DNA of 64,000 bases from Komagataeibacter sp. FNDCF1 (GTDB taxonomy: Bacteria; Pseudomonadota; Alphaproteobacteria; Acetobacterales; Acetobacteraceae): the NCBI RefSeq assembly GCF_021295335.1, contig NZ_JAIWOT010000001.1, forward strand, positions 2,464,501 to 2,528,500. The letters run 5' to 3'. The translations under genes were made by a program, and so were the position numbers. Below the pieces are notes generated by a model. It was not told where the DNA came from, ran no database searches, and was given only the letters and a program-made list of their open reading frames with translations. Position 1 is the first letter of the stretch. Every line of letters begins with the position of its first letter. This document shows, piece by piece, positions 58,787 through 61,215 of this stretch.

Positions 58787-59848
58787 TCAGACCTCCCTGA
58801 TGGTGCGGATCAGGTCACCCACATGTTCCGGCGGGGTAGAGGGGATCACGCCGTGACCGAGATTGAAGACATGCGGCCGTCCCTTCATGGCATCGCGGAT
58901 GGCACGGGCCTCGGCGCGCATGCCCTCACCGCCCGCCAGCACGCGGATCGGGTCGAGATTGCCCTGCAGCACCAGCGTGTCCGGCACCTTTTCCGCCACG
59001 GCCTTCATGTCGGCCCCGGTATCAAGCGCCATGGCGTTCACGCCCGTCACATGCCCGTATTCGATCGCCATCAGCCCGCCCAGGCGGGGAAAGCCGATGA
59101 CCGGCACGCCGGGGTGGCGGGCATTGATGATTTCGGTAATGCGCCGTGCGGGTTCGATCACATGCCTGCGGAACTGCGAGGGCGGCAGCAGGCCGGACCA
59201 GCTGTCGAACAGCATCACGGCCTCGGCCCCGGCCTCGATCTGGGCACAGAGCATGTCGGCGGTGGAGGTGGTGAGCAGGTCGATCAGCCGGTCAAAGAAC
59301 GCGGGATCGGTATAGGCCAGCCTGCGTGTCTCCTCGAACTCGCGCGAGCCATGGCCTTCCACCATGTAGCAGGCCACCGTGAAGGGGGCGCCCGCAAACC
59401 CGATCAGCGTGACCTGTCCCGGTTCAGCCGGACCGATCGCCTCGGGTCCGTCAACAGCCTTGCGCAGCCGCCCCAGCGTTTCCATGACCGGCTGGACCGC
59501 CCTGGCCACCCGCGTGGGATCGAGTCGCTCCAGATCGGCCATCGAACGCACCGGCCCCAGAACCGGGCCACGCCCGGCCACGAATTCCAGTGACTGTCCC
59601 ATCGCCCATGGCAGGATCAGGATATCGGAGAACAGGATGGCCCCGTCCATGCCAAAGCGGCGGATGGGCTGCAGCGTGATCTCGACCGCCATGTCGGGGG
59701 TCATGCAGCGGGTGATGAAATCGGCTTTTTCACGCAGGGCCCGGAATTCCGGCAGGAACCGGCCCGCCTGCCGCATCAGCCATACCGGAGGTGGCCATGT
59801 TGCCTCTCCCAACAGGGTGGCAAGCAGGGGTTTGCGTGTTTCAGTCAT
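58787..59848 (-). CDS. hemE: uroporphyrinogen decarboxylase
   Basis: Converts uroporphyrinogen III to coproporphyrinogen III (353 aa). PPVWLMRQAGRFLPEFRALR holds the substrate-binding Arg pair, ILFSDILILPWAMG and GFAGAPFTVACYMVEG follow, and GILTPxxTPPE is represented by GHGVIPSTPPEHV at the C-terminus. The ATG at 59848 is preferred over the frame opening at 59902. It is the leftward neighbour of the putative origin region, the arrangement known from other alphaproteobacteria. Confidence 0.96.
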   Translation of the reverse strand: MTETRKPLLATLLGEATWPPPVWLMRQAGRFLPEFRALREKADFITRCMTPDMAVEITLQPIRRFGMDGAILFSDILILPWAMGQSLEFVAGRGPVLGPVRSMADLERLDPTRVARAVQPVMETLGRLRKAVDGPEAIGPAEPGQVTLIGFAGAPFTVACYMVEGHGSREFEETRRLAYTDPAFFDRLIDLLTTSTADMLCAQIEAGAEAVMLFDSWSGLLPPSQFRRHVIEPARRITEIINARHPGVPVIGFPRLGGLMAIEYGHVTGVNAMALDTGADMKAVAEKVPDTLVLQGNLDPIRVLAGGEGMRAEARAIRDAMKGRPHVFNLGHGVIPSTPPEHVGDLIRTIREV

Positions 59849-59902
59849 TGATCCGTCGTTCTGTTTCGTTGTGGCCGGACTATCTCGTACTTTGCCAGCC
59901 AC

Positions 59903-60253
59903 GGATAGCGGGCAGGGACACCGCGCGCGCCTTTCAAAACAATAAAAGAAAAGAGAAAGAAATTTTTGGGGGTGTTTTAAGTGCTGTGAGTCATGGGGTA
60001 CCCACGTTTCCGAAAATGTACCCCATTTTTCCCACAGGGGGTACAGTTTCCGACTCCAAGGATTCCCGGGGGGGGTGGCGGGTTATCCAGATTGTACCGA
60101 CATAAGGCTGTGTACAACCCACCGCGAATGGACATGTACCCGTTGTCCCCGGTACTCGGTACGGCACAGAACTGTCTGGAGTACTATCCCCATGTACCCC
60201 AGTACTCCTGAGCCGGAAATTTTATCTTTCACTTCCACAGTACGGAGCATGCG
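59903..60253. other. candidate chromosomal replication origin (oriC), hemE-linked
   Basis: Part of a 405-bp gene-free stretch between hemE and maf. An A-rich strip (about 59937-59963) is followed by a dense field of GTAC words: fourteen between 59998 and 60320, where about one is expected. GANTC sites occur at 59988, 60052, 60061, 60263 and 60302. TTATCCAGA (60083-60091) differs in one base from a DnaA box, and TTTTTCCCACAG (60026) is a second, weaker candidate. Known alphaproteobacterial origins (Caulobacter, Rickettsia, Sinorhizobium) lie next to hemE. Inference, but well supported. Confidence 0.65.
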
Positions 60254-60898
60254 ATGGCGGACGACTCGAATTTAGTACTAAAGGCCACGTCATTACAGGC
60301 GGAGTCGCCCCGGATAGTACTGGCCAGCCGTTCCGGCGCACGGCGTGCCCTGCTGGATTCGGCGCGGATCAGGGCGGATTTTCAGGCCGCCGATGTGGAT
60401 GAGCACGCCATCCGCGACCGGTGCCGCGCGCAGGGGCTGGATGCCAGCCAGACCGCCCGCGCCCTGGCCCGCGCAAAGGCCGGTGCCATCACGGCCCCCC
60501 CCGGCGCGCTGGTCATCGGGGCGGACCAGATCCTGACCTGTAATGGCACATGGTTCGACAAGCCGGAAAACCGCGACGAAGCCCGCCGTCACCTCCGCCA
60601 CCTGCGCGGTCAGCCGCATGTGCTGCATACGGCGGTGGTGATGATGCGGGACGGATGCGAAATCTGGGGGCATGTTGCCTGTCCGGTGCTGCATATGCGC
60701 GATTTCAGCGATTCCTTTCTTGAGCATTATCTGCACGGCGAAGGGGATGCCATCCTTGCCTGCGTGGGGTGCTACCGGCTGGAGGGCATGGGCATCCAGC
60801 TTTTTTCACGCATTGAAGGGGAGTATTCCGCCATTCTTGGCCTGCCGATGCTGGCGCTGCTGGAGGCGTTGCGTGGACAGGGAATCATCTTGCAATAA
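60254..60898 (+). CDS. maf: Maf-family nucleotide pyrophosphatase
   Basis: A 214 aa protein of the Maf/Ham1 fold that hydrolyses (modified) nucleoside triphosphates. The substrate loop IVLASRSGARRALL (21-34), VIGADQILTC with the catalytic acidic residue, and DAILACVGCYRLEGMGIQLF and IEGEYSAILGLPM are all present. The usual SxR motif is conserved. It diverges from hemE across the putative origin. The genes that often follow (aroE, coaE, dnaQ) are absent here. Confidence 0.9.
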   Translation: MADDSNLVLKATSLQAESPRIVLASRSGARRALLDSARIRADFQAADVDEHAIRDRCRAQGLDASQTARALARAKAGAITAPPGALVIGADQILTCNGTWFDKPENRDEARRHLRHLRGQPHVLHTAVVMMRDGCEIWGHVACPVLHMRDFSDSFLEHYLHGEGDAILACVGCYRLEGMGIQLFSRIEGEYSAILGLPMLALLEALRGQGIILQ

Positions 60899-60996: not shown

Positions 60997-61072
60997 GGGG
61001 CCATAGCTCAGTTGGGAGAGCGCCTGAATGGCATTCAGGAGGTCAGGGGTTCGACTCCCCTTGGCTCCACCA
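60997..61072 (+). tRNA. tRNA-Ala (anticodon GGC)
   Basis: Acceptor GGGGCCA/TGGCTCC, D-arm GCTC...GAGC, anticodon arm CCTGA/TCAGG with loop ATGGCAT giving GGC, T-arm GGGG TTCGACT CCCC, CCA encoded. Decodes GCC and GCU. About 100 bp after maf on the same strand. Confidence 0.97.
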
Positions 61073-61215
61073 GATTCCTTGTCTGGTACCCCCCATTTTC
61101 AAAAAATGAAGTTGGTCTGATCGTTTCATCCACATGGATGCGGCGCCTTGTGTCCTGCCTTAATCACTTTGTAACGCCTGCCGCGTAAAAACTGCATTTC
61201 AGAGTAATGAAACGA

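Follow-up and report, generated by a model that had tools for sequence, protein, structure and literature searches.

A conserved array of GTAC palindromes with fixed geometry at the predicted replication origin of acetic acid bacteria

In E. coli, Dam and SeqA use hemimethylated GATC to delay or license the re-initiation of DNA replication. The clustering of GATC with Dam at the origin is one of four origin clusters linked to orphan enzymes in Blow et al. 2016, the others being TTAA in Arthrobacter, CTCGAG in Nocardia and a case in Haloarchaea, to go by those portions of the paper that were accessible (PMC4752239). The word GTAC has no occurrence in the main text of that paper, and acetic acid bacteria are not among its four cases. 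Other origins are related to the present one by position. The initial annotation of this locus had pointed to origins beside hemE in Caulobacter, Rickettsia and Sinorhizobium, and the available sections of a comparative study bear this out for Caulobacter (Cori), for Rickettsia and also for Wolbachia, where the second flank is a different one and CtrA sites are present (PMC1914354). For GTAC itself, an m4C methyltransferase has been described, M.RsaI of Rhodobacter blasticus (PMC6256690). Searches of open-licence PMC literature, on GTAC at origins and on GTAC in acetic acid bacteria, turned up no account of such an array, and as far as they reach the annotation's impression that it had not been described holds. 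The locus discussed below hints that acetic acid bacteria control DNA replication by a system not yet described, and offers a testable, sequence-exact predicted origin for an industrially important family.

The window, that is the whole stretch of DNA analysed, comprises 64 kb (positions 2464501-2528500 of C1, a contig of 3,529,188 bp). Within it two divergent genes enclose a spacer at 59849..60253, the predicted oriC. On one flank, on the minus strand, is hemE (58787..59848), encoding uroporphyrinogen decarboxylase (TIGR01464, 355.7 bits against a cut-off of 302.95). The other flank, on the plus strand, is a maf-like gene (60254..60898) which matches the Maf models of NCBIfam below their cut-offs, the best model scoring 185.5 bits (cut-off 269) and TIGR00172 scoring 114.1 bits (cut-off 117.15). 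A tRNA-Ala-like gene was noticed by eye downstream of maf, at 61001-61076. The A-rich strip which had been reported beside hemE is real (~59932-59968). It is T-rich on the hemE strand, as is the equivalent place in a consensus built from a stack of 19 genomes, and is likely to be the DNA unwinding element, a role which is inferred.

The array occupies 59998..60320 and is defined by the exact positions, density and column constancy of 14 GTAC palindromes, each found precisely where the initial annotation had placed it (59998, 60018, 60041, 60094, 60112, 60136, 60152, 60159, 60181, 60194, 60202, 60240, 60275 and 60317). A fifteenth lies at 59887, and those at 60275 and 60317 fall inside maf if the start of this gene is the ATG at 60254. 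The first palindrome, at 59998..60001, adjoins a DnaA-like stretch on the side of the unwinding element; it is the most widespread site of the array and is referred to here as the anchor. The core, at 60152..60205, has the spacings 7-22-13-8, or 8-13-22-7 on the other strand. No other 323-bp window of the 64 kb is as dense in GTAC as that starting at 59998. Elsewhere in the genome, the top density was 6 GTAC per 350 bp in 648 kb of stretches outside the window, 36 kb of which were counted twice. A pattern of three GTACs with gaps of up to 32 bases gave 34 forward matches in the genome, 7 of which overlap at the spacer, the remaining 27 being mutually separate; by this pattern the genome contains no second site like it. 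The count of five GANTC sites within 59849-60330 is also correct.

The evidence that this spacer is an origin comes from GC skew, from the conserved array and from DnaA-like boxes. Skew was sampled in 39 stretches of 12 kb and then in 180 kb contiguous with the window. Positive values predominate as far as ~0.82 Mb and negative ones between 0.90 and 2.56 Mb, where one sample (1.80 Mb) is nevertheless positive; from 2.61 Mb the sign is positive again. In the contiguous DNA at 2424.5-2668.5 kb the cumulative skew is lowest in the block 2528.5-2532.5 kb, at a distance of 4-8 kb from the spacer (2524.35-2524.75 kb). The dnaA gene is at the start of the contig, ~1 Mb from the spacer if the contig is circular. 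Two perfect parS sites were observed ~90 kb from the origin, at C1:2614332 and C1:2616669. Five further genomes were compared: the local skew minimum lies no more than 2 kb from the array in G013 and G070, whereas in G025, G046 and G673 it is 14-18 kb away, close to where the sequence examined ends. On a wider look the minimum of G025 was ~32 kb from the array and the sampled skew of G673 had no clear pattern. G046 gave no clear picture. The array thus marks the skew minimum in several genomes, not in all those checked.

The DnaA box that had been pointed out in the spacer, TTATCCAGA at 60083..60091 on the plus strand, is real and differs from TTATCCACA by one mismatch, but alone it means little, because nine-mers that close to TTATCCACA number 11 in the window; it is the only such nine-mer in the spacer. 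Its place reads GGATAA on the other strand in 13 of 19 stacked genomes. Across 25 array segments, nine-mers within one mismatch number 30 against 2.4 expected, three of them perfect, and those within two mismatches number 140 against 29.6 expected. Judged by their letters, the boxes among the GTACs appear to be mostly degenerate DnaA boxes. Three equal-scoring DnaA-domain-like ATPases (297-aa open frame; C1:827859, 1233893 and 1679870) are perhaps transposon helper genes. The CtrA site motif is TTAA-N7-TTAA, and control by CtrA was rejected since this motif occurs nowhere in the 64-kb window; it is likewise missing from 1.6 kb of upstream DNA in each of 25 array genomes. There is little reason to doubt that the hemE–maf spacer is the chromosomal replication origin, with initiation itself inferred in the absence of replication data. 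The initial annotation had named two findings that would refute its inference, a skew minimum elsewhere and related spacers without conserved GTAC and DnaA-box content; neither applies in this genome or in its close relatives, and the identification of the spacer as oriC is supported as very likely. In the accessible parts of two genome papers on Acetobacter, oriC is assigned to the vicinity of dnaA (PMC3751514) and to a skew maximum (PMC13209655), respectively. A hemE-side array with 12 GTAC is also present in A. cerevisiae LMG 1625, and the origins stated in those parts, which were not recomputed here, may be worth rechecking against it.

That relatives should carry GTAC clusters beside hemE could be confirmed at 72 of 80 named hemE loci, which have 6-15 GTAC per 350 bp and belong to Komagataeibacter, Novacetimonas, Gluconacetobacter, Acetobacter, Gluconobacter, Ameyamaea, some MAGs and unnamed isolates. 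The other eight, from Bombella, Parasaccharibacter and the isolate B3987, lack an array beside hemE. Counting only GTAC sites present in at least 30% of rows, every column of the shared GTACs (60/60) is invariant in 14 Komagataeibacter-type rows (the window and 13 named loci), compared with 67% of other columns. The corresponding values are 95 versus 75% in four Novacetimonas-type rows, 97 versus 68% in nine Gluconacetobacter rows, 57 versus 28% in 26 Acetobacter rows and 85 versus 52% in 14 Gluconobacter rows. The spacing 8-13-22-7-40-70-23-20 is kept across genera, including in G040, where the DNA upstream of hemE has 34% G+C. Its tail, 70/71-23-20, is found in 23 of 25 genomes; the core 8-13-22-7 is intact in 10 of the 25, and several others keep the register with one site missing. 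In 275 pooled GTAC sites the flanks are nearly without signal beyond the four letters. A density of 6 per 350 bp is attained throughout the 25 genomes by GTAC alone out of the 16 four-base palindromes. Where G+C is high, GCGC (up to 15), CGCG and CCGG are also frequent, but they drop to 0-1 in other genomes.

A sequence-only Infernal profile built from 19 arrays, run with stricter filters which lose weak matches, found a strong copy (E ≤1.7e-26) in 110 of the 397 genomes of the family, the next match among those listed being at 1.7e-12. No full array is present in the family's more distant genera. Ten of 120 family genomes were left out of the survey of DNA upstream of hemE, three of them without a hemE match and seven others. 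On this comparative evidence it is highly probable that the GTAC array is a selected, putatively working part of the active origin with a fixed geometry.

The Bombella-type genomes provide a natural experiment on which letters a live and a dead origin need. The proposal that Bombella had lost the array was rejected, as it was found elsewhere in these genomes, ~26 kb (G032), ~25 kb (G118) and ~20 kb (G101) from hemE with much the same spacings, and all three relocated copies are among the 110 strong matches though absent from the profile. In G118 the skew minimum follows the 4-kb block starting at 883,001, just before the array at 887,196, with hemE at 912 kb; in G032 it follows the 56-60 kb block, with the array at 59.5 kb and hemE at 85.6 kb. 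The stretch of G101 was too short for its minimum to be placed well. The moved array of G118 is directly upstream of a GMC-type oxidoreductase gene followed by rho, and like-looking frames lie beside that of G101. It seems that array and origin moved together. G101 also retains an eroded copy of the array beside hemE (G101:C12:63000-63157). Its aligned 157 bp contain no GTAC, with a single one slightly upstream of the aligned part, and of the invariant columns it retains 34 of 46 outside GTAC as opposed to 4 of 12 within GTAC (p 0.015, in one genome). DnaA-like boxes are partly kept in this abandoned copy. GTAC appears to persist at a live origin and to vanish from a dead one, albeit with the evidence of decay coming from one genome.

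An enzyme that might act on these words was sought among the methyltransferases of the genome, which has four stop-free N6_N4 methyltransferase frames and one more with two TGA. One is CcrM-like (622 bits, under the model cut-off of 830). The fragment with two TGA stops lies at C1:1871670-1872017, and a further N6_N4 methyltransferase, beside what by eye is a ParA-like frame (C1:1688825-1689457), is perhaps on an integrated element. The candidate is an orphan N4-cytosine-type methyltransferase of 296 aa (C1 3276270-3277157), located beside mltA and, on the other side, a gene in which c-type haem motifs were seen by eye; the 3.9 kb of sequence inspected around it showed no neighbouring restriction gene. 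The gene mltA is within the available flank at 23 of 30 orthologue loci. Motif IV reads TSPPY, which usually marks m4C enzymes, in all 30 orthologues examined. The candidate enzyme is present in 110 of 110 strong-array genomes. A strong array is absent from all 226 enzyme-negative genomes (E up to 1e-60) and present in 110 of the 171 enzyme-positive ones; the other 61 lack it, and a whole-genome pattern scan of two of these, G049 and G067, found no GTAC cluster. On the side of a link, G066, which falls with array genomes on the DnaA tree, albeit on a long branch, is without array and enzyme alike. With a limit of E 1e-40, a search of 289 genomes of the class detected the enzyme in three, each of them a member of the family. 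Relatives with 51% and 49% identity are encoded on two Paracoccus plasmids. A tie to the RsaI system remained unsupported, these closest plasmid homologues having no annotated restriction gene nearby in an incomplete gene table. The 400 bp before hemE hold a mean of 1.72 GTAC in 25 enzyme-positive genomes without a full array versus 0.65 in 57 enzyme-negative ones, uncorrected for ancestry.

When ancestry is considered, the association weakens. The anchor GTAC is present in 25 of 25 array genomes, in 24 of 25 enzyme-positive genomes without a full array and, at the exact offset, in 18 of 57 enzyme-negative genomes, with one more shifted by a base; this count leaves out the three moved-array genomes. 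Enzyme-negative genomes without the anchor often have GCGT, GCCT or GCAT before CCCC at its place, and CCCC and the DnaA-like box mostly persist there. On a DnaA tree of 55 genomes (39 with enzyme and anchor, 10 with the anchor alone and 6 lacking both) about nine changes are inferred for the enzyme against a single one for the anchor GTAC. The anchor was set by hand to present in the three moved genomes; G066, G029, G116, G002 and G113 were excluded as fragments or for their long branches. Resolution of the tree is weak, 29 of 52 inner branches having less than 80% support. Independent pairs on this tree gave no support for a link between enzyme and anchor, and the three pairs available on a first tree of 30 genomes were not significant. 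The anchor outlives about nine losses of the enzyme, and therefore at least this GTAC does not need it. The Fisher association between array and enzyme mostly reflects shared ancestry in one clade together with one co-loss. The claim that the methyltransferase explains the GTACs is accordingly weakened by the 55-genome tree.

The reading that best accounts for the locus as a whole, an origin in which the array is a working part and methylation gates initiation, is regarded as moderately probable, the specificity of the enzyme not having been demonstrated. The GTACs would serve as a mark or binding site that gates the assembly of DnaA on weak boxes, an inferred role; the orphan methyltransferase beside mltA would methylate them, and hemimethylated GTAC left after replication would delay or license re-initiation. 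A methylation system is the likeliest reader of GTAC, with the same reservation about specificity. Methylation as the mechanism is plausible, has not been demonstrated and is held with somewhat less than even confidence. More tentative still is the extension of this idea to a Dam/SeqA-like clock of the family's own, in which the orphan m4C enzyme would mark the array, an unknown protein would read its hemimethylated state, and the unwinding element and array would form a cassette portable enough to have moved the origin in the Bombella lineage.

Recognition by an ordinary DNA-binding protein competes on equal terms with a methylation code. The GTACs would then be unmodified sites of a sequence-specific protein acting with DnaA, perhaps an unknown origin regulator or an architectural factor, and the methyltransferase would be unrelated, a possibility which carries the same sub-even confidence as methylation. 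Spacing which is rigid over genera looks like a defined nucleoprotein complex, and the survival of the anchor through the methyltransferase losses fits such a protein. Yet a flank signal barely extending beyond four letters is short for a protein site, a strong array was seen in none of the 226 genomes without the enzyme, and no candidate protein was found in a search limited to DnaA and methyltransferases. The inference of the initial annotation that the array is a lineage-specific binding or methylation code fits, whilst the choice between methylation and plain protein binding is not settled.

It is rather improbable that the GTACs are instead parts of altered DnaA boxes, the DnaA of this lineage binding sites such as TTGTACACA. 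This sequence is conserved and only two places off TTATCCACA, and G066 also speaks for this reading. Neither array nor enzyme was found in this family member (no match for the latter). The DnaA tree groups it with array genomes, though on a long branch (4.06), and its very diverged DnaA is accompanied by 14 perfect TTATCCACA boxes beside hemE (G066:C1:948575-948843). However, RDHTTV, the recognition sequence in domain IV of DnaA, is shared by all 17 rows shown, whether or not they come from array genomes, which weakens the case for a DnaA of new specificity, and many GTAC contexts, such as GGGGTACATTTT and GTACCGAGTAC, are unlike DnaA boxes.

That the cluster is merely a promoter-regulatory region of hemE and maf, with no part in an origin, is very unlikely. 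Its location between divergent genes is what such a region would have, but in G032 and G118 hemE and maf are still adjacent whilst array and skew minimum are both found away from them, and regulation of the hemE promoter was rejected on these grounds. Chance or a compositional artefact can be dismissed, since a first-order Markov model of the 64-kb stretch yields a mean of 2.7 and a maximum of 9 GTACs, reaching 14 in none of 2000 runs, and the cluster recurs at 72 of the 80 named hemE loci.

A methylation-gated origin of this kind, if correct, can be set beside the systems introduced at the outset. As in E. coli oriC, dense four-base palindromes lie among DnaA boxes at an origin. Unlike in E. 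coli, the word is another one, the methyltransferase belongs to another class (predicted m4C) with methylation not demonstrated here, and no SeqA-like reader is known for the array. The candidate enzyme is of the same class as M.RsaI of R. blasticus, which targets GTAC (PMC6256690), yet it lies beside mltA with no restriction gene seen in 3.9 kb. The origins of Caulobacter, Rickettsia and Wolbachia, as far as the accessible sections describe them, likewise lie beside hemE with DnaA-like boxes (PMC1914354); the present locus differs in having maf rather than COG1806 or COG1253 as its second flank, and in having a GTAC array and no TTAA-N7-TTAA in the window. The locus also resembles in kind the cases in the available portions of Blow et al., where a motif cluster in non-coding origin DNA is correlated with a conserved orphan enzyme (PMC4752239), the correlation at the present locus being mostly one of shared ancestry. 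The GTAC array departs from the cases given there in its spacing, which is fixed between genera, and in that it seems to have moved with the origin. It may be a further example of an origin packed with short methylatable words, of which there are few.
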